57,909 bases of DNA, taken from a virus. The stretch is from positions 1 to 57,909 of IMG/VR virus record IMGVR_UViG_3300030430_001633; one strand, given 5' to 3'. Shown here one piece after another: positions 4,353-57,909 of this stretch. Position numbers and translations under genes: made by a program. Positions within the stretch are counted from its first letter, which is position 1; every line of letters starts with the position of its first letter. The notes under the pieces are model-generated. The model saw only the letters and a program-made list of their open reading frames with translations, had not been told where the DNA came from and did no database searches.

Positions 4353-4634
4353 TTAGCTGTATGGCCCTTTGATCATTTTTGAGCTTACTTTGCCACCGAC
4401 TGCGCCGCCTTTGTTCATCATTCTACGTTTGCCGCCCATTGCGCCACCCTTGGACTTCATCATGCGCTTACCGCCCATAGCACCGCCTTTGGACTTCATC
4501 ATGCGTTTTTTGCCGCCCATTGCGCCACCCTTAGACTTCATCATGCGCTTTTTGCCGCCCATGGATCCACCTTTGGACTTCATCATGCGCTTCTTCTTAC
4601 CGCCATTGGCGTTACCCTTCTTCTTCATCGCCAT
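4353..4634 (-). CDS. Lys/Gly/Met tandem-repeat basic protein
   Basis: A roughly 93-residue, strongly basic protein made of about five tandem copies of M-M-K-S-K-G-G-(A/S)-M-G-G-K-(K)-R, ending in MIKGPYS. Translation probably begins at MAMKKKGN (4634), inside the end of the upstream gene, with a GAGG nine bases upstream; a longer frame starting at 4667 is less likely. Related Lys/Gly/Met-rich repeat proteins are common in marine phage late operons. Charge suggests binding to DNA or to a capsid surface, but no function is established. Confidence 0.55.
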   Translation of the reverse strand: MAMKKKGNANGGKKKRMMKSKGGSMGGKKRMMKSKGGAMGGKKRMMKSKGGAMGGKRMMKSKGGAMGGKRRMMNKGGAVGGKVSSKMIKGPYS

Positions 4635-5316
4635 CTTCGTTTTCCTCTTCCGCGTAGAGATTATCAAAAATCTGATTTACGTCCATTGTATAATCTAAAT
4701 CAGACTTTGAATAGTGTATGTGTTGAGAAGGCTTGAAATCAGGTGCGCCTTCGCCTGTTTCAAACCAAGCAGGATGCGTGACTCTTACACGATTATTAGG
4801 CAAAGCCACGATATTTCCAGTCCACTGACCAGCGTCTAGTAGCTCTAACACATGGCTTTGTTTGTGTTGAGCCGGATCATCTGCTATCTCACTCTCAGTG
4901 TAGTCCACTGTAAAGTAATACTTCGCGGGGAAAAATTCTCCGTCAATTTTAGCAATCCATGGGCAGGGCGTAGCCCTGTTAATCTTGTACACAGCATGCG
5001 TGTGAGACATACAGTCCCACGGTTGAGCCGCGTGTACCGGCATGGGGTCAGGCCACTCCTCGTAGGGGGTATCCCCCACTAAAGCTGTTATGGGCATCCT
5101 AGCCCACATGGCCCCGCCATGAACGTTCGGCTCATCGTTAATTTCAGCCTCACAACCTGTAAAAATCACCTGAAAACTCAAACATCTGTTTGGCATTGTA
5201 GTTACTGCTACAGCCATTGCATGAAGGAACTCGCCGTGGTGGTCTTCATGATTGCAAGTATATTCCTTCCTTACCCAACATTTGAAGTAAGGGATATTAC
5301 TTGTTAGATAACTCAT
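4612..5316 (-). CDS. Conserved marine-phage protein of unknown function
   Basis: A 234-residue protein rich in His, Cys and Trp. The N-terminus carries C-x-W-x-R-x-E-Y-T-C and H-E-D-H-H-G-E-F, possibly metal-binding. The middle has MPITALVGDTPYEEWPDPMP and WDCMSHTHAVYKI. The C-terminus is acidic (AEEENEDGDEEEG). I recognise the overall sequence as a conserved protein of uncultured marine phages but know no function. It sits among small basic proteins in the late block, overlaps the repeat protein by 23 bases and its upstream neighbour by 4. Confidence 0.6.
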   Translation of the reverse strand: MSYLTSNIPYFKCWVRKEYTCNHEDHHGEFLHAMAVAVTTMPNRCLSFQVIFTGCEAEINDEPNVHGGAMWARMPITALVGDTPYEEWPDPMPVHAAQPWDCMSHTHAVYKINRATPCPWIAKIDGEFFPAKYYFTVDYTESEIADDPAQHKQSHVLELLDAGQWTGNIVALPNNRVRVTHPAWFETGEGAPDFKPSQHIHYSKSDLDYTMDVNQIFDNLYAEEENEDGDEEEG

Positions 5317-10673: not shown

Positions 10674-11108
10674 TTAAACGTGCAAAATATCTTCGGGGTC
10701 ATTGATAGTGGCAAGGATCTCGTCATCATTAAGAAGACGCACCTCACCACCTTCAATCTTAAAACGACTTCCTGCGTATCTACCAAAAATCACCCAGTCA
10801 CCTTCTTCACACCAAGGTTTCCAGTTCTTAGTAGGATCCACAGGGTCACCAAATTTTTGGGGATCTTTGTATGCAAGGGGGCCGACTTTGAGCACAAAGC
10901 CACAAACTGTAGCAAGTGCCTCGCGTTCTATCGCTTGGTCGGGTAGGATAACGCCGCCGTCTGTTTTCTTTTTACCCTTAAAAGGTAATATCAAAATACG
11001 CCAGCCTGTCGGTTGCGGCAGTTTTTCTAAGGCAGGGGTTTCGGGGGTTTTTGCTTCTTTAGCTTTTTGTTTAGCAATATAATCTGGTACGAGAAGTGTT
11101 TTACTCAT
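10674..11108 (-). CDS. GroES-like co-chaperonin (Cpn10 family)
   Basis: A 144-residue protein whose middle matches the Cpn10 fold: PTGWRILILPFKGKKKTDGG then VILPDQAIEREALATVCGFV, with a VGPLAY turn, a GDWVIFGRYAGSRFKI segment and RLLNDDEILATI at the end. The K-x-T-D-G-G-V-I-L-P stretch corresponds to the mobile loop that binds GroEL. It is longer than GroES (about 97 residues) because of an N-terminal extension and an insert (YKDPQKFGDPVDPTKNWKPW). Placed directly before scaffold and capsid genes, it probably helps the host chaperonin fold the capsid protein, as T4 gp31 does. Confidence 0.8.
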   Translation of the reverse strand: MSKTLLVPDYIAKQKAKEAKTPETPALEKLPQPTGWRILILPFKGKKKTDGGVILPDQAIEREALATVCGFVLKVGPLAYKDPQKFGDPVDPTKNWKPWCEEGDWVIFGRYAGSRFKIEGGEVRLLNDDEILATINDPEDILHV

Positions 11109-18265: not shown

Positions 18266-18709
18266 TTACTTGGTAGGCTGGGGCTGCGCTACCAGTTTAA
18301 CGTAGCCAGTGCCCCATACCGCGCTGCTAGGGCTGTAGCCGCCGTTAAGCAAAGCCAGCAGGCAAATTGGCTTTTTGCTGCTGTGGCCTAGCGGCTTAGC
18401 TGCGGCCAATATTGCGGCAAGGCTATTATTGCCGTTAACACCGTTAAGCAGCCAGCCCTGTATTGTGGCGCGCACGCCACCGGCCTTGCCGTTAAAGCCA
18501 AACGGTACAGGCTGCGGCTGGTCAAGCTGCACGTTTGGCAGCGGCACAACTTGCACATTATGCAGGTTGCCGCCCGCGTGCTGCTGCACAAACTGCCAAA
18601 TGCAAGCGTAGGTTAACTCGTTACCTGTGTGTTGCAGGGTTGCAGCCTTAACGGTGGCTGCTTTAACCGTGGCCTTTTGGGTGGCCTTACCCTTTTTAGC
18701 GTTTTGCAT
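18266..18709 (-). CDS. Unrecognised protein, paralog A of a two-gene family
   Basis: A 147-residue protein of unknown function. A Lys/Ala/Thr-rich N-terminal tail (residues 1-30) precedes a compact domain (IWQFVQQHAGGN, QPVPFGFNG, GGVRATIQGW, PLGHSSKKPICL, GGYSPSS). Over 107 ungapped residues it shares 68 identities with the protein at 19138-19557 (hand count). Conserved His, Gly, Cys and Trp positions suggest a defined fold. It has its own promoter, 5' stem-loop and terminator. Base composition differs from the surroundings: 38 of 60 bases in 18301-18360 are G or C, against 16 of 60 in 18721-18780. Possibly a moron; I do not recognise the family. Confidence 0.7.
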   Translation of the reverse strand: MQNAKKGKATQKATVKAATVKAATLQHTGNELTYACIWQFVQQHAGGNLHNVQVVPLPNVQLDQPQPVPFGFNGKAGGVRATIQGWLLNGVNGNNSLAAILAAAKPLGHSSKKPICLLALLNGGYSPSSAVWGTGYVKLVAQPQPTK

Positions 18710-19137: not shown

Positions 19138-19557
19138 TTAACCTTTGACTACCAGCTTGACGAACGGAGTCATCCAGTATTTGCTAGACGGTGAATATCC
19201 ACCGTGCATCAAGGCGTGTAGGCAGACTGGCTTTTTGCGCGAGTGTCCTAATGGTGCTGCCTTATTGAGTGCTGCCTTTAGCGACGTGTCGCCGTCTACA
19301 CCAAACAACATCCAATCTTGGATGGTCTGGCGTACACCACCCGGACGTCCACCATAACCAAAGGGGACGGGCTGCACGGACTCCTTGTCAACATTGTCTA
19401 GCGGCACAATGTGGACGTTCGCCTCGTTACCGCCAGCGTGCTCTTGGACGAATTGCCAGATCTGGTCGTACGAGATCTCTGCATCGGTGACAAGGAGCTC
19501 AGCTGATTTAACGACAGCTTTGGCGGTGGACTTTTTAACAGATTTTTTAGCAGTCAT
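19138..19557 (-). CDS. Unrecognised protein, paralog B of a two-gene family
   Basis: A 139-residue protein with a basic Lys/Ala/Ser-rich N-terminal tail and the same compact domain as paralog A (IWQFVQEHAGGN, QPVPFGYGG, GGVRQTIQDW, PLGHSRKKPVCL, GGYSPSS). 68 of 107 aligned residues are identical without gaps. As a protein it is far better matched to paralog A than the DNA composition would suggest, so the two copies may have arrived separately or diverged in different hosts. It has its own promoter, leader stem-loop and terminator. No signal peptide or membrane segment. Function unknown. Confidence 0.7.
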   Translation of the reverse strand: MTAKKSVKKSTAKAVVKSAELLVTDAEISYDQIWQFVQEHAGGNEANVHIVPLDNVDKESVQPVPFGYGGRPGGVRQTIQDWMLFGVDGDTSLKAALNKAAPLGHSRKKPVCLHALMHGGYSPSSKYWMTPFVKLVVKG

Positions 19558-25956: not shown

Positions 25957-26202
25957 TTAGTCTTCATTTGGAGCAGTCCATTTAGCTCCCACTAGATATC
26001 CGCACTCTCCACAACTGATTTGACCCTCCATGTGAGAAATGAGATTGAACGAGCTAGATCCACAGAGCGAGCAGAGTAGAACCTCTACCTCATGCTCAGT
26101 GACCACTAAATTCTTCTCCTCTATGATGGGGACTTTTTCTCGTCGGATGAAAGGGATGACATTGTCTCTCTCATGAATGGGGGAGTTGGCCTTCTGCGCC
26201 AT
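25957..26202 (-). CDS. Zinc-ribbon protein with long overlap of its neighbour
   Basis: An 81-residue protein with two Cys-x2-Cys pairs (LLCSLCGSS near residue 44 and ISCGECGYLVG near 64), a classic zinc ribbon. The ATG at 26202 has GAGG eight bases upstream, inside the coding sequence of the preceding gene. If both frames are used they overlap by 82 bases. N-terminus NSPIHERDNVIPFIRREKVP is predicted flexible. Function unknown. Confidence 0.55.
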   Translation of the reverse strand: MAQKANSPIHERDNVIPFIRREKVPIIEEKNLVVTEHEVEVLLCSLCGSSSFNLISHMEGQISCGECGYLVGAKWTAPNED

Positions 26203-26627
26203 ACACTAAACCTCGCTTTTTCATAGATGTAATAATTTTGGTACGCCGTGATTGTATCAGAATGTTTATATTCATCGGGCATAGCTTGATAAGGTTTAGT
26301 AAACCCTCTAGCGTCTAGCCCTATTGGTGGACATCGTAACATTGCGAGAATCCTCCCACAATCATGGTATTTGTCAAAACGATAAGTGTATTCTTTACAA
26401 AGAGCTACACCTAGTTTCCACAACCACCGATAATTTTCTACTGTTTGACCTGCCCAAAGAGTGCAGCCATGTTTCGGGCTGAAGGGTTTATAGGGCGCGT
26501 CACCTTGGTAGCGGTGATGCACACTACTTAACATCTGGCAGGTTTCTAGTGGCATCTTTATAACGTGCTTATCATTGTGCCACTGAGCGCAGATTACTTG
26601 GTCCCAATCGATAATAAATATATTCAT
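26121..26627 (-). CDS. Conserved phage protein of the pyrimidine-dimer-glycosylase-annotated family
   Basis: A 168-residue protein starting MNIFIIDWDQVICAQWHNDK, with GAGG five bases before the ATG at 26627. It contains DKHVIKMPLETCQMLSSVHH, then HGCTLWAGQTVENYRWLWKL, and QAMPDEYKHSDTITAYQNYY. This order is familiar from phage and cellular proteins sometimes annotated as pyrimidine dimer DNA glycosylase; that function is not established to my knowledge. The final 30 residues overlap the next gene and may be a late extension of the frame. Confidence 0.6.
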   Translation of the reverse strand: MNIFIIDWDQVICAQWHNDKHVIKMPLETCQMLSSVHHRYQGDAPYKPFSPKHGCTLWAGQTVENYRWLWKLGVALCKEYTYRFDKYHDCGRILAMLRCPPIGLDARGFTKPYQAMPDEYKHSDTITAYQNYYIYEKARFSVWRRRPTPPFMRETMSSLSSDEKKSPS

Positions 26628-26647
26628 CCACACCTCACATCAACCCC

Positions 26648-26990: not shown

Positions 26991-27281
26991 TTAGACGTAA
27001 TCACCACTGTGGATTGCTGCCTCAATTTCTTCATCAGTCATCTGATCAAAATCTAAATCTTCTATTCTTTTCGTCGGTCTGCGATATTTCCTTCTATTTA
27101 TTTTCGGCGGCTTGGTTTCTACTACTTTTTTCTTGACGACAGTTTCTTTTTCAGGTTTTAATACTTCTATTGTGTAATATCGGGTTTTACATTTCTTACA
27201 TTCTCGTCGCCTCATGATGGTATCCTCAAAAGGTCGACTATCATAAACTCCGCTTTTACCTCCACACTTGATACAGTTCAT
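26991..27281 (-). CDS. NrdR-like zinc ribbon without ATP-cone
   Basis: A 96-residue protein. Residues 1-40 match the N-terminal zinc ribbon of the NrdR repressor: MNCIKCGGKSGVYDSRPFED with Cys3, Cys6, Cys28 and Cys31, and the D-S-R-P-x-E-D ... R-R-R-E-C-x-x-C signature. NrdR normally continues into an ATP-cone that senses dATP/ATP. Here that domain is replaced by a basic linker (KKKVVETKPPKINRRKYRRP) and a short acidic tail. It may bind NrdR boxes of host ribonucleotide reductase operons without nucleotide control. GGAG is six bases upstream of the ATG. Confidence 0.68.
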   Translation of the reverse strand: MNCIKCGGKSGVYDSRPFEDTIMRRRECKKCKTRYYTIEVLKPEKETVVKKKVVETKPPKINRRKYRRPTKRIEDLDFDQMTDEEIEAAIHSGDYV

Positions 27282-27290
27282 AATCAACTC

Positions 27291-27815
27291 CTATGGTGTT
27301 AAACTATTATGATTCAGCACCGCCTCTACTGGTTTAAATTCTTCATCACCAGAAAACTTTTCGTAAAGATATTCAACTCCAGTTTCCATAATCCTTTTCA
27401 TCTGTGGGTTGCCCCCAGAGTGACGTTTAGTGTAGAGCACGAGCTCTAACATATCTGCCATTTTAAGTCTTCGTTGCTCTTCTAGGGTGAGCACGAACAC
27501 CAAACCTAACTCTTCTAATACTTTTTGTTCTGCTTTTTCAAAGGCTTGTTTTATTTCAGGGTAATCCCACTTAGCAGTGGCAGGTGTATCACCCAAAATT
27601 AATTCTGGTACGTCGTGATACAACGCAGCCATTATTAATTGCTTGCTGCTATCAGGCCATAGTTGATCTATCAAAACACTTACTGCATATGAATGTGCTC
27701 CCACGGTTTGCCTTTCTGATTGCATCGCAACCGTATGATATCGTAATAAAAACTGTGCATCCCAAACAGCGGATATAGTCTTAATTTTTTGTATTGTGTT
27801 GCATTTCTGTGCCAC
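27291..27815 (-). CDS. HD-domain 5'-deoxynucleotidase, YfbR-like
   Basis: A 174-residue protein of the HD phosphohydrolase superfamily. Metal ligands are His41 (GAHSYAV), His67-Asp68 (LYHDVPELI) and Asp121 (KMADMLEL), with Glu71 next to the HD pair. The GDTPATAKW segment matches YfbR-type enzymes, which dephosphorylate deoxynucleoside monophosphates. It appears to use a GTG start (27815) with GGAG nine bases upstream, overlapping the DNA polymerase gene by 35 bases. It could lower dTMP or dUMP pools if the phage replaces thymine. Confidence 0.75.
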   Translation of the reverse strand: MAQKCNTIQKIKTISAVWDAQFLLRYHTVAMQSERQTVGAHSYAVSVLIDQLWPDSSKQLIMAALYHDVPELILGDTPATAKWDYPEIKQAFEKAEQKVLEELGLVFVLTLEEQRRLKMADMLELVLYTKRHSGGNPQMKRIMETGVEYLYEKFSGDEEFKPVEAVLNHNSLTP

Positions 27816-29721
27816 CGTCTTTTACTCCTCTGAGCCAAGGTTTTTCTGCGAATGTTTGTTTAGCCTCTCCCCAGTTAGGGCCGAACTCTGCATCTACAAT
27901 AGAAGGCACCTCTAGCTTTACGCAGTTCTCCATAATTTCAGTAATCTGTTTTGCCTGAGCTTCACTTTCAACAGAGATGTCCAGCTCATCGTGAACTTGA
28001 ATCATGGGTAATATGCCTTCGTCAGCTAGAGCAACCATCGCTGCTTTTGTTTGATCTGCCGCACTGCCCTGTATGAGTTTATTAAGAGCCTTATATGTAA
28101 ACGCCCTTTTGATTCCTGGGCCATGCTCAGCGTAGGCTTCTTGGTAAGTCATAGGCTTCCAGCTTCCGTATTTGTTTGGCTCCCACTTATCAAAGCGGCA
28201 TCTACGGCCTAACAAGGTACGGATTACACCACGGTTATTGGCACGATTAGTGCTGTACTCACTGAGCTCGCGTACAAAGGGGACTTTGTCATGGTAAGTA
28301 GCAAACAAATCCTGAGCATCTTCAAACTCTAGGCCAAGACTCGCCGCCAGTTTTTTACTCCCCATCCCATAAAACAAACCAAGGTTGATATCTTTAGCCT
28401 GTTTGCGTGGCACACCCACAATATCAGCAGCCATCTGATGGAAATCTGTACGGGGGTCGGTATTATATTGTTCAGCAAAGTCTGAAGCCCCTCTGAAGCC
28501 CATCAGTTTGGCATAATGCACAACTATGCGCGGTTCTTGGCTGGAGTAGTCGAACGCGCCCCACTGACAGTCTTGTTCGGGTATGAATAAGCTACGGATC
28601 ATTGGCCCTATTTCGCCATGCCGTGCTGGGATTTGTTGAAGATTCGGGTTGCTGTAGCTGAATCTACCTGTAACGGTGCCGCCATCATCACTGCGGAGTG
28701 GGTGCAGTTCAGCGTGTATCCTACCATCTACCTGATGTTTGAGTATAGTATCTACAAATGTTGATCTAGCCTTTTGGTACTCTCGGGCCTGAACTATCAT
28801 TTGTGGTACTTCATGTGGGTGGTGGCTCAAGAAACCTTTAGTAAAGCTCGGTGCGCCCGTCTTTTCTGTTTTATTGTACGGTAAGTCTAAGGCATCAAAT
28901 GCTTTAGCAACACTTTCAGCCGCCCATATCTCTACTTCTACACCTGTTTGTCGTTTTACATGGCCGAGAAGTTTCTGTTCTTTTGCAAGCAACTCTTCTT
29001 TGATGCGCTCACATTTATCTAAATCTACTCTTACGCCGCGTTCTCGCATGGGGATTATTGTTTTAAGAACATTGAGTTCAAGGTTAAAGATATCTTGTAT
29101 ATCTTCTTTTATTATTAAAGTCTTAAAATGCTGCCATAGTCTCAATGTCAGGGCGGCATCTTGCTCTGCATATTTACCCACATGATGTGCGGGTAACCGA
29201 TACATCTCACTCTTGGCATTTACACCAAATGCGTCTGCGGCTTCTCGCAACTCAGCTTCGCTTTTACGCTCTTGTAAGTAATCCCGCCCGATAGCGTTTA
29301 GGGCATAGCTGAACCTGTTTTCGTCGAGCAAAGGTGCCACGACCATTGTGTCAATGATTCTGCCGTAGGTCCGCAGACGGGGCCAAACATTCTCTGCGAG
29401 CAACCAGCCAACATCATAAGGAGCGTTATGGAAAATATAATCTCTATCTTTTTGAACAACATCGCGCAACCAACCTAAAGTTTTCTTAACATCAAAGTTA
29501 GGGCCGATCTCGTGACGAATGGGGAAGTACCATTGGTCACCTTCAACAGCCACCGCAATGCCGATAATGTGGCCGTCTCTCCTAGCCCAACCACTACCCA
29601 TAGTGATTAGATTAGGGTCGCGTGTTTCTAAGTCAATAGCAACCTCTTTCGCCCCTGATATATCGGGGTAGCCATCAGGCATGACCCACTCAGTCGGCGG
29701 TTGAAATAGGGGGTACTGCAT
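27781..29721 (-). CDS. polA: Family A DNA polymerase with 3'-5' exonuclease
   Basis: A 646-residue replicative polymerase. The exonuclease has Asp30/Glu32 (AIDLET), Asp103 (NAPYDVGW) and Tyr184-Asp188 (YAEQDAA). The polymerase domain has TGRFSYSNPNLQQIP (351-365), motif A AFDYSSQEPR (Asp391), motif B RKQAKDINLGLFYG (Arg439, Lys443, Leu447, Tyr451) and motif C QVHDEL (His577, Asp578). Leu447 corresponds to E. coli F762, a Leu substitution linked to slower, more accurate synthesis in some phages. No 5' nuclease or DnaJ-like insert is present. It lies downstream of the putative base-modification genes. Confidence 0.92.
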   Translation of the reverse strand: MQYPLFQPPTEWVMPDGYPDISGAKEVAIDLETRDPNLITMGSGWARRDGHIIGIAVAVEGDQWYFPIRHEIGPNFDVKKTLGWLRDVVQKDRDYIFHNAPYDVGWLLAENVWPRLRTYGRIIDTMVVAPLLDENRFSYALNAIGRDYLQERKSEAELREAADAFGVNAKSEMYRLPAHHVGKYAEQDAALTLRLWQHFKTLIIKEDIQDIFNLELNVLKTIIPMRERGVRVDLDKCERIKEELLAKEQKLLGHVKRQTGVEVEIWAAESVAKAFDALDLPYNKTEKTGAPSFTKGFLSHHPHEVPQMIVQAREYQKARSTFVDTILKHQVDGRIHAELHPLRSDDGGTVTGRFSYSNPNLQQIPARHGEIGPMIRSLFIPEQDCQWGAFDYSSQEPRIVVHYAKLMGFRGASDFAEQYNTDPRTDFHQMAADIVGVPRKQAKDINLGLFYGMGSKKLAASLGLEFEDAQDLFATYHDKVPFVRELSEYSTNRANNRGVIRTLLGRRCRFDKWEPNKYGSWKPMTYQEAYAEHGPGIKRAFTYKALNKLIQGSAADQTKAAMVALADEGILPMIQVHDELDISVESEAQAKQITEIMENCVKLEVPSIVDAEFGPNWGEAKQTFAEKPWLRGVKDGGTEMQHNTKN

Positions 29722-29866
29722 TGCCTTTTACTTTCATCGGTTGCTTACATCTGGCACAAACGGGCCACCTGTTTTTTAAATTACGAAAAGTGACTGTGCG
29801 TGTTGCACCACACTCGCAGGATGCTTCTACTTGTTTATCTAAGTTACTTTCTTTTTCCTGACTCAT
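29690..29866 (-). CDS. 58-residue zinc-ribbon protein upstream of DNA polymerase
   Basis: A gene found by reading the gap. ATG at 29866 has GAGGG seven bases upstream; the stop is at 29690. It overlaps the upstream gene by 23 bases and the polymerase start by 32. Two Cys-x-Cys/Cys-x2-Cys pairs (ASCECGATRT and VCARCKQPMK) form a zinc ribbon. N-terminus MSQEKESNLDKQVEA is charged. Its tight position suggests a role with the polymerase, but no function is known. Confidence 0.6.
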   Translation of the reverse strand: MSQEKESNLDKQVEASCECGATRTVTFRNLKNRWPVCARCKQPMKVKGNAVPPISTAD

Positions 29867-30200
29867 TCTTTACCCTCAGCGACATCTCAGCTTCTACGAG
29901 GAAAAGATACCTGCGTAAATCCCGTATGTCGTCTAGTATACCTTCTTCACGGGTATCTTTAGATATAGCAGCAAACACATCGTAATGGTGTTCGTTTACT
30001 TGCTTTTCTAGCCTGTCCCACTTACGCGCCAGCATCATAAACGCACCCACACCGCCGCGCTGTTTCCAGCTATCGCCGTAAGATTGCTCAGCTTCTTGGA
30101 GCTTTACTGTATCCAAACTAGCAAGAACATCTACTTGCCGGATAATTTCACTGGGTTGGTCTTTCATTTTATCTTTCATGTATTGCTCGTGCCTTTTCAC
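29844..30200 (-). CDS. Conserved phage protein of unknown function
   Basis: A 118-residue, helical, charged protein. The conserved signature is SYGDSWKQRGGVGAFMMLAR, KWDRLEKQVNEHHYDVFAAI, then EEGILDDIRDLRRYLFLVEA. Many phages encode a protein with this G-D-S-W-x-x-R-G-G ... A-R-K-W-D-R pattern near DNA metabolism genes, but its role is not known to me. It overlaps ThyA-like gene by 4 bases upstream. Confidence 0.65.
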   Translation of the reverse strand: MKRHEQYMKDKMKDQPSEIIRQVDVLASLDTVKLQEAEQSYGDSWKQRGGVGAFMMLARKWDRLEKQVNEHHYDVFAAISKDTREEGILDDIRDLRRYLFLVEAEMSLRVKNESGKRK

Positions 30201-31174
30201 CTCAATCTCCTATCTAGCCATTCCATACAAGCCTTACGCCATGCACGGTCACCTATAGAATGAGCATGGTAATATGCGCTTGTATAATTTTTTGCTTTCC
30301 AGCAACGCCAAGATAATCTCATCTGGGCGCAGGTATCACCTAAGTAAGTGTTCTCATATTCCAGCCTATCTATATCTTCAAACCATTCTAGTAATTCTTT
30401 GTCAAAGGTAGAAGGCTCATCAATCAAAGCAGGTGGCGTATATTTCAAGCCGTCTTCACTCAAAGTAAGGTAAGGCTCATATTGCGGCTGCATACCGTCT
30501 AGTTTTTTAAGCACATCTACATATGCGTGTAGATTATTACTGAACTGATAATAGTTACCTATGCCGTATCCAAGCATCCCTGCCATGTATTCTAACAAGA
30601 CAGACATATGCACAGCATTTGCACCAAACGCTCCCCAGATCATATCGTTACTGCGATTGCACACAGTCATATGCAAATCTTCATCGCGCTCCCAAAACAT
30701 AATCTGCGTATTACAGGGATAATCTTTACCATCGTTAGTTTCAACTAAGTCTTGGCGTGGATCCCACATACCAACCACAACTCTGCGATCATTAGGATAA
30801 GTGCTCAACCTAAACAATGCTTTTTGTAACTGATCTTTGCCGAACCAGTTACGCCACCTATATCCATATGCACCGTGAAAAGTCACCCCATCATCGCTGT
30901 AGGTGTTCATCCTGCCGTTAAACTGGCTAATCCAATCCACATCGTTACGCCCTGCCAACATCCACAAGCTCTCCATCAAGTGGAAATACGGGTTAGCATC
31001 GCGCTCATGGTAAAACAGCACTCGCTCACGGCTGTGGGTGTAAGTAGTTGTCACAGGTGTAGGGAACTCTAAGGCAGCACCGTTACGAGTTTGCACCTCT
31101 ACACCACTGCTTTCAATACCTTGCTTGGCTAGATAAAGGGCCTCACTTACCCCACGAGCATTAATTGATTGCAT
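30197..31174 (-). CDS. Thymidylate synthase superfamily enzyme (ThyA-like; dUMP methylase or hydroxymethylase)
   Basis: A 325-residue enzyme of the ThyA fold. The nucleophile is Cys154 in DYPCNTQ. Phosphate and base contacts are in NRSNDMIWGAFGANAVHMSV (Arg174, Asn176, Asp177; Asn186 aligns with E. coli Asn177), followed by YYQFSNNLHAY. Asn186 favours a uracil substrate over cytosine. Members of this superfamily make dTMP, or hydroxymethylate dUMP or dCMP for phage DNA modification; sequence alone does not decide. It sits 58 bases after the glycosyltransferase gene and in the same strand block as the AGPT-Pplase-like gene, which favours a modification role. Confidence 0.78.
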   Translation of the reverse strand: MQSINARGVSEALYLAKQGIESSGVEVQTRNGAALEFPTPVTTTYTHSRERVLFYHERDANPYFHLMESLWMLAGRNDVDWISQFNGRMNTYSDDGVTFHGAYGYRWRNWFGKDQLQKALFRLSTYPNDRRVVVGMWDPRQDLVETNDGKDYPCNTQIMFWERDEDLHMTVCNRSNDMIWGAFGANAVHMSVLLEYMAGMLGYGIGNYYQFSNNLHAYVDVLKKLDGMQPQYEPYLTLSEDGLKYTPPALIDEPSTFDKELLEWFEDIDRLEYENTYLGDTCAQMRLSWRCWKAKNYTSAYYHAHSIGDRAWRKACMEWLDRRLR

Positions 31175-31232
31175 ATAACGCCTCCTCGACGTGCTAAAAG
31201 GTTATGGGCGGGGGTAAGGTACCCTAGCACCC

Positions 31233-32507
31233 CTAAGATGCTCGAGCGGGGTCTGCAGACCTAATGCCGAAAAACTCGAGGTTCTTGTGGCACCTTTGCA
31301 TAGCCAATGTGTCAGGAGTACCTACGCTTAATCCATTCGTATCCATTACTAAGTCAACATACTCTTGTGCTACATTCCGCATATCAAAACGCTTTAGGAG
31401 TTCTAGGTTGTTTTCCTTTATCCTGAGCCACTGGTTCTTATCATGTATGGCTTTATCAATAATATCAGCAAACAGGAAAGGCTGAGCTTCAGCAGGTATT
31501 TGGATGAAGTTTTGCCCTGCCTTAAATATCTCACTGTTTTTCATGCCCCAATCTGTAGCGACAGGTACCGCACCACAGATGATTGCTTCTACAGTAGTCC
31601 GGTTAAAATGTGCGCCGAACTTAGAATACTTTTTACTGTAACTCGGGTCAATCTGTAGCTTGACTGTTTTTAGTATCTCAAACACTTTGTCATTAGTTAC
31701 CGTACCTAAATGCTCCATACCAAAACGCTTGGCTCTGTCCCATATGCGGTCGCCAGTTTCATCAAAGTATTTTGGTTTGCACTTATCTGGGCTAGTCATG
31801 TAGCGGTACTCAATGCCTTCTCCACCAATGAGCTTGCGCTCACTGTTGGTCATATATCTTATGGCACGAACTAATGTGTCTACACGCTTCCAAGCCTTAA
31901 ATACTTGGATAGCTGCAAACCCATCACGTTTTTCAAAGTCAGTCCAACCATCGGCACCGCTTATATCAAAAGGGTTAACAATCAACTTGCGCGGTATGGG
32001 CAGCATGTCGCCAGAGTGCATGGCAGATTCATGAACGCAGACTGCCGCATGAAAGTTGTGCTTTTGGTAGATCAAATGCGGGTAAAGCTCAGGCAGGTTA
32101 CCATCATGAATGATGGCTATGTTTTTACTGCCGTGGTCGTACAAATCTAGCCAATCTTGGACATCCTTATTTTCCTTATTCAAGGTTGGCACAGGGATGT
32201 GCCACAGCACGGCGTCATACTTGCTGCACTTCTGCTTAAACATATCCCTTTGGTATTTTGATTTGTACGGAACTTTAGGCATTCCTACCCAACCCCTAGC
32301 TTGATGGTGGGGGTATCCGGTGCCTACCTTACGGTATTGATCAAAGTTTTTAGGAGGTGTAAACCTACCGATTATTTTTTCTTTAGGCACGAGCATGGTA
32401 AAGTCAACCTCGTGGCCTAATTCTTTTAAACCTTTTGCAAGATACTCTGCGTGGTTAATTATCCCACCATAATCCTGTATCTGATACATTGTCATAAGAA
32501 ACTTCAT
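31233..32507 (-). CDS. GT-B glycosyltransferase, GT4-like
   Basis: A 424-residue protein with the two Rossmann domains of the GT-B fold. The N-terminal domain shows YQIQDYGGIINHAEYLAKGL. The C-terminal donor-binding domain shows FAAIQVFKAWKRVDTLVRAI near residue 200 and a FNRTTVEAIICGAVPVATDW motif near 320, the usual donor-site loop. The sugar donor and acceptor are unknown. Its start overlaps the AGPT-Pplase-like gene by 4 bases, and the ThyA-like gene follows. Modification of bases in phage DNA, or of a cell-surface glycan, are the alternatives; the context favours DNA. Confidence 0.75.
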   Translation of the reverse strand: MKFLMTMYQIQDYGGIINHAEYLAKGLKELGHEVDFTMLVPKEKIIGRFTPPKNFDQYRKVGTGYPHHQARGWVGMPKVPYKSKYQRDMFKQKCSKYDAVLWHIPVPTLNKENKDVQDWLDLYDHGSKNIAIIHDGNLPELYPHLIYQKHNFHAAVCVHESAMHSGDMLPIPRKLIVNPFDISGADGWTDFEKRDGFAAIQVFKAWKRVDTLVRAIRYMTNSERKLIGGEGIEYRYMTSPDKCKPKYFDETGDRIWDRAKRFGMEHLGTVTNDKVFEILKTVKLQIDPSYSKKYSKFGAHFNRTTVEAIICGAVPVATDWGMKNSEIFKAGQNFIQIPAEAQPFLFADIIDKAIHDKNQWLRIKENNLELLKRFDMRNVAQEYVDLVMDTNGLSVGTPDTLAMQRCHKNLEFFGIRSADPARAS

Positions 32508-33400
32508 TCTACGGCTCCTTGTGGTACTTCATTAAATAAGTCTGGCTTGTAGACGCTACGCGGTCGCCCTTGGCCTAACCTTACACGTTCGTACTTGTCC
32601 CATTCGCATAAGCTATGTTCAATAGTACGCATATCCACTTGATCAAGTGGCACATGGGGCATGATGTAAAACGGGGCCGTTGATAACAACTTACGCATGA
32701 AGTCATTTGCCACAGCTTGCGTCATACCTTTTTTAAGAGGGTTACCTAATATTCGGTTTAGTCCTCGTATAGCTCCCGGCCCAGCGTTCGCCCAGCTATT
32801 ACGGTCTTTTGCCGATGATAGTACAGGCGTGTAATTGAGGTCCGTAACGACCTCGTATGACATAAAACCTCCCCCTCCCCATCCCCGATAGGCACCCATC
32901 GCCTCATGTAAGGCTTGGAGCGACTGCGTGGTTTGGGCAATCTGCGCCAACGCTTCTTTGTTTTCCCAGATAGGGGCAAGAAAATGGTCAACCACTACCT
33001 CTGACTTTGGTAACTTGAGTCCTTGGTTAGTGATTATATATGCACCAGTAAACGTCCGTAAGCCCTGTTCAATGCGAGAGTTTATCAGGTCTTTAGTAAA
33101 TGTCGGGTTAAACTCTTGCGACCAGCCGTGTTGCTCGGCAAACTCACTGGTGCCAATCATACGAAACAAACAACAATTAAATATAATCTCACCGTGGGGA
33201 CGGTTGTGGTTAGGGTCTGTCCAGTTTTCCCGCATCCACACAGTAACCCTATCGTTCTCACGGAACGGGTTTGTAAATTTAAACTCTTGTAAGATGGGGT
33301 CATCTGTCCATGGAGCAGAAGCACCCGACCTCCTGCGTAGGTAGATCGAGTGCCTCTCATTAATCCACCCGAAGTAACTTTCTATAGCTTCGGTGAGCAT
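32504..33400 (-). CDS. AGPT-Pplase/5-hmdU DNA kinase-like protein (DNA glycosylase superfamily)
   Basis: A 298-residue helical protein. The N-terminal signature RRRSGASAPWTDDPILQEFK followed by FTNPFRENDRVTVWMRENW (residues 22-60) is what I recall for the alpha-glutamyl/putrescinyl thymine pyrophosphorylase clades. These proteins are related to DNA glycosylases and act on 5-hydroxymethyluracil in DNA, adding phosphate or pyrophosphate so the base can be further modified. Later conserved parts are IIFNCCLFRMIGTSEFAEQH, FTGAYIIT and AMGAYRGWGGGGFMSYEVVT. The adjacent glycosyltransferase and ThyA-like gene fit a hypermodification pathway. Enzyme activity is not established here. Confidence 0.72.
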   Translation of the reverse strand: MLTEAIESYFGWINERHSIYLRRRSGASAPWTDDPILQEFKFTNPFRENDRVTVWMRENWTDPNHNRPHGEIIFNCCLFRMIGTSEFAEQHGWSQEFNPTFTKDLINSRIEQGLRTFTGAYIITNQGLKLPKSEVVVDHFLAPIWENKEALAQIAQTTQSLQALHEAMGAYRGWGGGGFMSYEVVTDLNYTPVLSSAKDRNSWANAGPGAIRGLNRILGNPLKKGMTQAVANDFMRKLLSTAPFYIMPHVPLDQVDMRTIEHSLCEWDKYERVRLGQGRPRSVYKPDLFNEVPQGAVE

Positions 33401-57723: not shown

Positions 57724-57909
57724 TAAGTAATCTCCATGATACTCGCCACAGTATCTAGACTACTGGCAACGCTGGATTGCACAATCAAGCTATGACCTGT
57801 TTCCATAACGATTTTGTTTCCAGACATGTACTCAAAGCTAGATCCAACAGGTATAGGAATGTCTTTAGCCAAAAACACCATATCACCAGCGTTCAGCTTG
57901 ATATCTGCC
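57723..57909 (-). CDS. Tail fibre/virion protein, C-terminal part (continues from position 1)
   Basis: The last 61 residues of the gene that starts at 386. The sequence reads ADIKLNAGDMVFLAKDIPIP, VGSSFEYMSGNKIVMETGHS, then LIVQSSVASSLDTVASIMEI-T and stops. This small beta-rich C-terminus shares one base with the fibre gene downstream. Together with 1-386 it forms a 190-residue structural protein of the tail fibre region. Confidence 0.8.
   Translation of the reverse strand, partial: ADIKLNAGDMVFLAKDIPIPVGSSFEYMSGNKIVMETGHSLIVQSSVASSLDTVASIMEIT

Follow-up and report, generated by a model that had tools for sequence, protein, structure and literature searches.

The 57,909-nucleotide stretch of DNA analysed here (the window; positions 1-57,909 of the record IMGVR_UViG_3300030430_001633, from an environmental, uncultured phage) quite probably encodes a kinase-free module that glycosylates 5-hydroxymethyluracil in DNA. 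In this module, a helical protein would serve as the shared base-recognition partner of interchangeable glycosyltransferases (GTs). The decisive evidence is comparative and rests on predicted genes, namely the co-occurrence of a GT with the helical protein and the exchange of one GT family for another. A sugar-bearing modified thymine had been raised as a possibility in an earlier note on this DNA, and it has survived the present tests: a GT was found in 77/77 informative loci, and the two enzymes that mark the known M6-type pathway, a P-loop kinase for 5-hmdU in DNA and ADDT (an amino-acid:DNA transferase), are missing from the record and from every relative tested. The sugar, its linkage and the enzymatic activity remain unproven, and there are no nucleoside data.

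Genomic context

The earlier note had described three adjacent minus-strand genes followed by those of a DNA polymerase and an HD enzyme. The coordinates of the three open reading frames (ORFs) were verified, and the two downstream genes are located where they had been placed (Table 1). Its list of neighbours omitted the conserved 118-aa gene lying in between. The four-base overlap that it reported between the GT and helical genes is present as ATGA and recurs in most relatives, which implies translational coupling. An identical gene order was found in dozens of viral contigs, and chance is thus excluded.

Table 1. Features of the modification region (window coordinates)
Feature	Position	Strand	Basis or remark
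YfbR-like HD 5'-deoxynucleotidase	27291-27815	-	PF12917, 4.4e-10
Family A DNA polymerase (PolA) with 3'-5' exonuclease	27781-29721	-	PF00476, 2.9e-61
Conserved protein, 118 aa, function unknown	29844-30200	-	Between hydroxymethylase and PolA
ThyA-superfamily enzyme, 325 aa, predicted dUMP hydroxymethylase	30197-31174	-	PF00303, phrog_5131, residues
GT-B glycosyltransferase (type I), 424 aa	31233-32507	-	PF00534, GT-B model
ATGA start/stop overlap of helical and GT genes	32504-32507	-	Sequence; -4 spacing in most relatives
HMUDK_hel (former aGPT-Pplase1), 298 aa, without kinase domain	32504-33400	-	PF18723
Protein of unknown function, 193 aa	33404-33985	-	Directly upstream of helical gene

Several neighbouring genes are also conserved. 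The 118-aa protein is 50% identical to Pam3_54, which is annotated as 'nucleotide modification', and is represented by 91 ORFs in the surveyed loci. The 193-aa protein is conserved in most relatives (83 ORFs). A homologue of the HD protein adjoins the hydroxymethylase gene in the phages M6 and Pam3, and the enzyme presumably clears away dTMP or some other nucleotide that would compete. PolA, which is presumed to incorporate 5-hmdUTP, is 50-56% identical to that of HTVC023P-type pelagiphages and places the window in the same phage lineage.

The HD gene beside PolA, with a weak match to a dATP triphosphohydrolase PHROG (3e-14), had also raised the possibility of a 2-aminoadenine (Z) genome. This candidate was rejected: the best matches of the HD protein are YfbR-like (Pfam) and phrog_6047 (unknown function). 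No adenylosuccinate synthetase (PurZ-like) domain was found among the window proteins scanned.

The record has no terminal repeat. When its ends are joined, an ORF reads through the junction, and some relatives align across it. On the strength of this continuous ORF, the record is probably a complete, circularly permuted genome, which is not proven. No match to 20 kb of the window was found in a nucleotide search of 50,697 phage genomes.

A probable dUMP hydroxymethylase

The ThyA-like protein matched Thymidylat_synt (PF00303) at 9.9e-21 and phrog_5131 at 1.6e-103. It retains C146, R166, S167, D169, N177, H207 and Y209 and is without W80 (one alignment only); both the catalytic Cys and the uracil-selective Asn177 are therefore present. 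The gene is annotated as a thymidylate synthase in most public phages, and an ordinary synthase, in a module that only raises dTTP, would also retain Asn177. Such a reading is scarcely credible given the substitutions L143D, H147N and H51N, the loss of W80 and the RSND..WG..GAN block, all common to this enzyme and the SPO1 dUMP hydroxymethylase gp29. The overall residue pattern is that of SPO1 gp29 and M6 gp58, not of E. coli ThyA, and the nearest relatives in the PDB are CMP hydroxymethylases. The enzyme is also 42% identical to gp58 of M6, a phage with 5-hmdU-derived bases (PMC6449724). Active-site residues and the closest solved structures thus bear out the earlier proposal that this gene makes hydroxymethyl-dUMP. 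5-Hydroxymethyl-dUMP is its probable product, an activity inferred from these comparisons.

A helical protein without its kinase

The first gene of the module had been assigned to the alpha-glutamyl/putrescinyl thymine pyrophosphorylase clade. The family was confirmed by a Pfam search, in which its product matched HMUDK_hel (PF18723) with E = 5.8e-50 (170.7 bits, cut-off 25). A complete pyrophosphorylase/kinase is not encoded, and only the helical partner is present, a protein previously known solely in company with a DNA kinase. This protein is 35-39% identical to M6 gp55, the partner of the kinase in M6, and its AlphaFold2 model is all-helical (pLDDT 91). No match was found in the PDB by sequence or by fold. 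In the absence of a solved relative, its role as the predicted recognition partner for 5-hydroxymethyluracil in DNA is inferred from gene company alone.

This homology, together with a gene neighbourhood otherwise the same as in M6-type phages, could mean that the M6 pathway operates after all, with an unrecognised kinase pyrophosphorylating 5-hydroxymethyluracil and the GT acting in a later step or on another group. Profile searches make this very unlikely. The kinase profile (PF18748) gave no match in the record itself or in 37 related viral records (28 + 9), and M6, Pam3 and TM26, used as positive controls, scored over the cut-off. The ADDT profile (PF18724) likewise had no match in the record and none over threshold in the relatives. 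Only three Walker-A-like motifs occur in the window, one of them within a recognised P-loop gene (UvrD helicase), and no spare P-loop protein was found there. The Nmad5, PLP and radical-SAM genes of the M6 set were not found in the window or, in relatives, within 6 kb of the helical gene. The absence of the kinase rests on one profile and on sequence searches, which a very divergent kinase could escape. Since both kinase and ADDT are missing, the pathway is probably not of the M6/phiW-14 type.

Could the helical protein itself be an enzyme, for instance an ADDT-related second transferase by which the glycosylated base is modified further? Sub-threshold ADDT matches were obtained in six related records (3.4e-6 to 0.002), inside the helical gene where they could be located, and many polar residues are invariant (R16, H17, D34, N44, E48, D50, E266, D268, K269 and R272). 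The profile-profile comparison with ADDT was not significant, and the same residues are unchanged beside four kinds of partner (the kinase and three GT types). A shared DNA-binding role fits this constancy better than an enzyme activity of its own, and a catalytic helical protein is considered unlikely.

Glycosyltransferases exchanged in one slot

The second gene was correctly called as a GT-B enzyme. Its product matched Glycos_transf_1 (PF00534) at 1e-6 (28.9 bits, cut-off 26.4), and its AlphaFold2 model (pLDDT 88) has a GT-B fold; by these two criteria the protein belongs to the GT4-like Glycos_transf_1 group. The GG loop (GGIINH), an HDG motif, a K/R pair (FKAWKR) and E307 are invariant or nearly so in 18 relatives. 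Fold matches include GT4 enzymes and the T4 alpha-glucosyltransferase (AGT), which has been solved with HMU-containing DNA; ordinary GT4 enzymes are the best of them, and AGT is one of many. The fold is also close to that of the GTs of phage SP-15. No DNA-GT family (AGT/BGT) was matched in Pfam or PHROG, and the likeness is in fold only. The enzyme is predicted to be a 5-hydroxymethyluracil-DNA glycosyltransferase; transfer of sugar to DNA is inferred.

Lipopolysaccharide and lipids are common acceptors of GT4-type GT-B enzymes. Given the fold matches, the GT might act on the host surface (receptor masking or superinfection exclusion) and be in the module by chance. A survey of 80 related viral loci with the helical gene argues strongly against this. 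All of the 77 with readable downstream sequence have a GT in the region, and it falls into one of three families: GT-B type I in 33, TAGT in 30 and a GT-B-like type II in 14. TAGT, a family of DNA-base glycosyltransferases of T6-like phages (PMC13390438), thus occupies the same slot. Swaps between families are repeated, with at least 10 changes of partner GT type on the helical-protein tree. In two loci (L027 and L028), type II stands in place of type I between flanks that are 78-92% identical to the window (72-76% for two small genes). The start/stop overlap with the helical gene also speaks against a chance neighbour. So does the distribution of the type I GT, for which 84,980 cellular genomes yielded a single relative, itself on a phage-like contig. 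A surface role for the GT is accordingly regarded as highly improbable, and DNA remains the preferred acceptor.

The three GT families have no clear sequence similarity to one another. Profiles of types I and II were collinear (E 3e-4, probability 39%, shallow alignments), so common GT-B ancestry of these two appears likely from the alignments but is not shown. TAGT usually occurs with a radical-SAM/SPASM enzyme, and type II sometimes with an FkbM methyltransferase. Neither type I nor type II was found in 50,697 phage genomes by tblastn. For the type I GT, the helical gene is adjacent or one gene away in 46/48 loci whose sequence covers the side in question; in the remaining two the genes are apart on the same contig. 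More distant type I relatives from other phages (30-39% identity; L154-L157) are still accompanied by the helical gene and the hydroxymethylase, with an altered gene order in three of them.

The coupling of a GT with an aGPT-Pplase gene, which the earlier note could not match to a described system, is therefore not unique. It is standard across a large related phage group and has been noted in passing for pelagiphages (PMC9599517), where its kinase-free nature was unrecognised.

A proposed pathway

In the proposed pathway, the ThyA-like enzyme would convert dUMP to 5-hydroxymethyl-dUMP, and the HD enzyme would probably lower dTMP. Host or unidentified kinases would supply the triphosphate, and PolA would use 5-hydroxymethyl-dUTP to replace T partly or wholly. 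After replication, HMUDK_hel may bind or expose 5-hydroxymethyluracil in DNA, a service that it is presumed to render the DNA kinase of M6-type phages; the coupled GT-B enzyme would transfer a sugar from an activated donor to the hydroxymethyl oxygen. Substrate, donor (most likely UDP-glucose) and linkage are all inferred. The predicted product is a base-J-like glycosyl-5-hydroxymethyluracil, and its inferred function would be to block restriction and other DNA-targeting defences. The T4 beta-GT is able to glucosylate 5hmU (PMC4111573).

A broader proposal, for and against which we find the case evenly balanced, is that HMUDK_hel is a general presenter of 5-hydroxymethyluracil in DNA and not a kinase subunit. 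Its catalytic partners would be of at least four kinds: TAGT, each of the two GT-B families and the P-loop kinase. A family of thymines bearing sugars would then be spread through a large phage group, some of them simple base-J-like glucosides and others with methylated or radically altered sugars, and recombination of GT cassettes would change the DNA coat.

Comparison with known systems

The M6 pathway is described here from published accounts (PMC6449724, PMC9599517, PMC11946847), Pfam names and general background. M6/YuA (Pseudomonas) and Pam3 (Pseudanabaena) likewise group the genes for the dUMP hydroxymethylase, HMUDK_hel, the HD nucleotidase and PolA in one neighbourhood. They differ in carrying the P-loop kinase, ADDT, Nmad5, PLP and radical-SAM genes, none of which is in the window, where a GT occupies the Nmad5 slot. 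The clusters of HTVC023P-type pelagiphages have been described as containing TS, aG/PT-PPlase1, a 5'-deoxynucleotidase and, in some, a 'beta-glucosyl-HMC-alpha-glucosyltransferase', and were read as M6-like (PMC9599517). Judged by its name, that GT is probably of the TAGT type. The two GT-B families, the kinase absence and the GT exchange are not part of that account.

The T4 alpha/beta-glucosyltransferases and T6 TAGT share with the window GT the GT-B (AGT) fold and the post-replicative addition of sugar to a base hydroxymethyl group. In those systems, however, the base is cytosine rather than uracil, there is no HMUDK_hel partner, and the window GT is not a member of their families by sequence. 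Base J of kinetoplastids resembles the predicted product, O-glycosyl-5-hydroxymethyluracil, and is a known case of a sugar directly on 5-hydroxymethyluracil. There, JBP1/2 oxidise thymine within DNA, whereas the window pathway would make 5-hmdUMP before replication; no TET/JBP thymine hydroxylase domain (Pfam) was found among the window proteins scanned. Carbohydrate on modified uracil or thymidine has been reported in DNA of SP-15 (Bacillus) and YerA41 (Yersinia) (PMC5977210, PMC9023294). In SP-15 the sugars are on a dihydroxypentyl chain, and YerA41 has a group of ~1 kDa; neither has been described with sugar directly on 5-hydroxymethyluracil.

Significance

As of 2019, a sugar directly on 5-hydroxymethyluracil was stated to be unreported in phage genomes (PMC6449724). 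If the proposal is true, viruses of bacteria would have a DNA modification new to them, base J might be made and mapped with the enzyme, and restriction and nuclease-based defences would be evaded by a new route. The replacement of one GT family by another at a single site suggests a cassette-wise change in the chemistry of the phage DNA coat. The PF18723 family also needs to be reread: it is named for a kinase, yet no kinase accompanies it in any close relative tested, and its real role is thereby open to direct test.

The Brevibacterium phage LuckyBarnes has consecutive genes for a hydroxymethylase-like TS, two GTs of the TAGT family and HMUDK_hel. It has been published as encoding a dCMP hydroxymethylase and two GTs (PMC6588365); the hydroxymethylase-like enzyme has a uracil-type Asn. 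Kinase and ADDT are absent as in the window, the difference being TAGT in place of GT-B. Since LuckyBarnes is cultured and has the same gene set, the idea can be tested now.

The three-gene module

The set of three minus-strand genes proposed in the earlier note is real and beyond chance. Open reading frames and profile matches agree for each gene, and the profile check against HMUDK_hel bears out the placing of the first, the helical gene, in the AGPT-Pplase clade. Like matches in public records carry either HMUDK_hel, its present name, or aGPT-Pplase1. The 4-base overlap of this gene with the glycosyltransferase (GT) gene is present in the sequence as ATGA. The DNA polymerase and HD enzyme said to follow the module were also found, as the ThyA-like gene is followed by a conserved 118-aa protein, a family A DNA polymerase (PolA) with exonuclease and a YfbR-like HD protein.

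Features of the window and of surveyed related loci (L numbers)
Feature	Location	Strand	Match or basis
HMUDK_hel family protein, 298 aa	32504-33400	minus	PF18723, E 5.8e-50
Glycosyltransferase, 424 aa	31233-32507	minus	PF00534, 1e-6, above curated cut-off
ThyA-superfamily protein, 325 aa	30197-31174	minus	PF00303, 9.9e-21; phrog_5131, 1.6e-103
NrdR-like zinc-ribbon protein	26991-27287		
Pyrimidine dimer DNA glycosylase-like protein	26121-26633		PF03013, 0.0012 (weak)
Apparent paralogues, neighbours	18266-18709; 19138-19557		IWQFVQ.HAGGN...
GroES (Cpn10)-like co-chaperonin, probable	10674-11108		sequence
Short repetitive ORF	4353-4667		MKSKGGAMGGKKRM repeats
Ends of the record	1-386; 57724-57909		
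NrdR-like gene, TAGT-type relative	L033:4001-4309		
TAGT, then radical-SAM/SPASM	L034:7196-8984; L072:6888-8658; L078:7478-9242		CNLACSFC motif
FkbM-type methyltransferases near GT	L064:8950-9594; L077:7988-8725		PF05050
FkbM-type methyltransferases near GT	L076:8938-9609; L085:7940-8377		own profile
SAM-methyltransferase-like proteins near GT	L155:4132-4791; L156:4330-4998		sequence alone
TS-like gene, two TAGT genes, HMUDK_hel	L159:4601-8616		

Alignment to E. coli ThyA and to the dUMP hydroxymethylase gp29 of SPO1 shows that the ThyA-like enzyme retains the catalytic Cys146, Arg166, Ser167 and the uracil-selective Asn177. L143D, H147N and the loss of Trp80 are common to this enzyme, SPO1 gp29, the hypermodifying phages M6 and Pam3, and all surveyed relatives. 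Since Trp80 of thymidylate synthase keeps water away from the methylene intermediate, the absence of this residue is consistent with hydroxymethylation. The nearest solved structures are CMP 5-hydroxymethylases (1.7e-16), followed by thymidylate synthases (3.6e-11), and along its length the enzyme shares 42% identity with gp58 of M6, whose DNA carries 5-hmdU-derived bases (PMC6449724). Given the residue pattern, these structures and the likeness to gp58, a uracil-type hydroxymethylase is the best assignment. The suggestion that this gene could make hydroxymethyl-dUMP thus stands as a prediction, its activity being inferred.

The AlphaFold2 model of the GT has a GT-B fold (88.3), and its top PDB matches are GT4 enzymes of the retaining kind with UDP- or GDP-sugars as donors. 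T4 alpha-glucosyltransferase is among the matches (1y6f, E 3.8e-11, TM 0.61), including structures solved with HMU-containing DNA (1y8z and 1y6g). The viral matches include two glycosyltransferases of SP-15, a phage with a hypermodified uracil bearing a sugar (PMC5977210). The GG loop, HDG motif, Lys/Arg pair and Glu307 are invariant or nearly so across 18 relatives, so the GT looks like an active enzyme, although this is inferred from conserved residues. Sugar transfer to 5hmU in DNA is chemically feasible, since T4 beta-GT can glucosylate this base (PMC4111573).

Exchange of glycosyltransferases in one slot

Searching 2.9 million viral contigs with the helical protein as query yielded 80 loci, and the genes in them were labelled with profiles derived from those of the window, M6, Pam3 and Sonora. 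A GT was found in 77 of them; the other three break off no more than about 200 bases from the helical gene. The slot between the helical and hydroxymethylase genes is filled by the GT-B of the window (33 loci), by TAGT (PF20691; 30 loci) or by a second GT-B-like family (14 loci). The last has no Pfam match and aligns end to end with the GT-B of the window by profile comparison at low probability. These loci are not all independent. A tree of 58 distinct helical sequences (that of the window included) and three kinase-bearing controls requires no fewer than 10 switches in partner type. The sharpest exchange is seen in L027 and L028, where the GT is swapped for the other GT-B-like family; identity to the window is 78-92% for helicase, DUF932, helical protein, hydroxymethylase and PolA and 72-76% for the two small genes.

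Further enzymes accompany some GTs. A radical-SAM/SPASM enzyme follows TAGT in the same stretch in 27 of 30 TAGT loci, which suggests that the sugar or base is modified by radical chemistry. FkbM methyltransferases occur in 6 of 14 loci of the second GT-B-like family, and a sugar carried by the base could be methylated.

The association of GT and helical gene could reflect inherited position or shared function. Started from the GT, a search gave 52 viral loci (a short fragment left out) and, out of 84,980 genomes, one cellular contig, which has the same phage gene order. This contig (L158, PANU01000095.1), from a Flavobacteriaceae genome bin, is probably a mis-binned viral contig. The helical gene adjoins the GT or is one gene away in 46 of 48 loci in which the relevant side is readable. 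The other two GTs (L137 and L138) lie on the same contigs as L092 and L097, where the helical and hydroxymethylase genes lack a slot gene; the GT had thus moved yet stayed in the genome. In four loci of other phages (L154-L157), GTs only 30-39% identical still neighbour the helical and hydroxymethylase genes, and gene order has changed in three. As moved and divergent GTs keep this company, functional linkage is much better supported than inherited position.

Absence of the kinase and ADDT

In M6, Pam3 and Sonora, the helical gene is preceded by ADDT and a separate P-loop gene, which in M6 and Pam3, where it was tested, matches the 5-hmdU DNA kinase family PF18748. Neither kinase nor ADDT was found in the window, and the profiles marked no kinase, ADDT, Nmad5, or PLP and radical-SAM genes of the M6 set within 6 kb in any of the 80 loci. 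The kinase search gave no match in any of 28 whole related viral records (M6 and Pam3 being positive), in nine more, or in LuckyBarnes, MW202897 and Pajaza; Rhizobium phage TM26 did match, and PaMx11 only weakly. In the search of the 28 relatives and the two controls, M6 and Pam3, ADDT exceeded the cut-off only in the controls. Sub-threshold matches occurred in six relatives, and the one whose coordinates were determined falls within the helical gene.

The weight of these absences depends on completeness. The window is one virus record of 57,909 bases. A reading frame runs unbroken across its joined ends, and alignments to some relatives span the join, so it probably represents an entire genome that is circularly permuted. 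Its PolA is 50-56% identical to those of HTVC023P, HTVC027P, 023Pt_psg01 and DSL-LC04. Three of these genomes were inspected, and in them PolA has the helicase directly upstream or separated from it by two small genes; in the window, the interval holds DUF932, a 193-aa gene, the module and the 118-aa gene. The module therefore has the appearance of a unit inserted or lost within a known phage lineage.

Proposed pathway

Judging from its residues, the ThyA-like enzyme would convert dUMP to 5-hmdUMP, and PolA would incorporate the 5-hydroxymethyl nucleotide into DNA. The helical protein, whose role is inferred, may then recognise 5-hydroxymethyluracil. Its AlphaFold2 model is all-helical and confident (91.2) and resembles no solved structure in the PDB. 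The GT would glycosylate the recognised base, as its gene company and fold indicate; donor and linkage are inferred. Glycosylated 5-hydroxymethyluracil is a likely product class, and whether the helical protein presents the base independently of its partner is about an even call. No later report of such a system was found in the open literature, subscription papers being outside the search. Pieces of it are thus already known. What appears to be new is the architecture without a kinase, the presence of three GT families in a single slot, and the swapping of one for another.

Additional observations

The cultured Brevibacterium phage LuckyBarnes (L159) has an enzyme published as a dCMP hydroxymethylase whose residue 177 is the uracil-type Asn; the genes tabulated for this phage lie in a row. 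The NrdR-like gene of the window is immediately past the HD gene, and a similar gene lies between the helical gene and TAGT in many TAGT-type relatives. The PF03013-like gene is conserved close to the module, with about 30 ORFs in the survey, and might have a role in base handling or repair. The function of the two paralogues is unknown, and the repetitive ORF is rich in Lys, Met and Gly. A scan of the other proteins of the phage gave a PF00166 match (2.6e-11) without naming the member; it was linked to the GroES-like gene by sequence.
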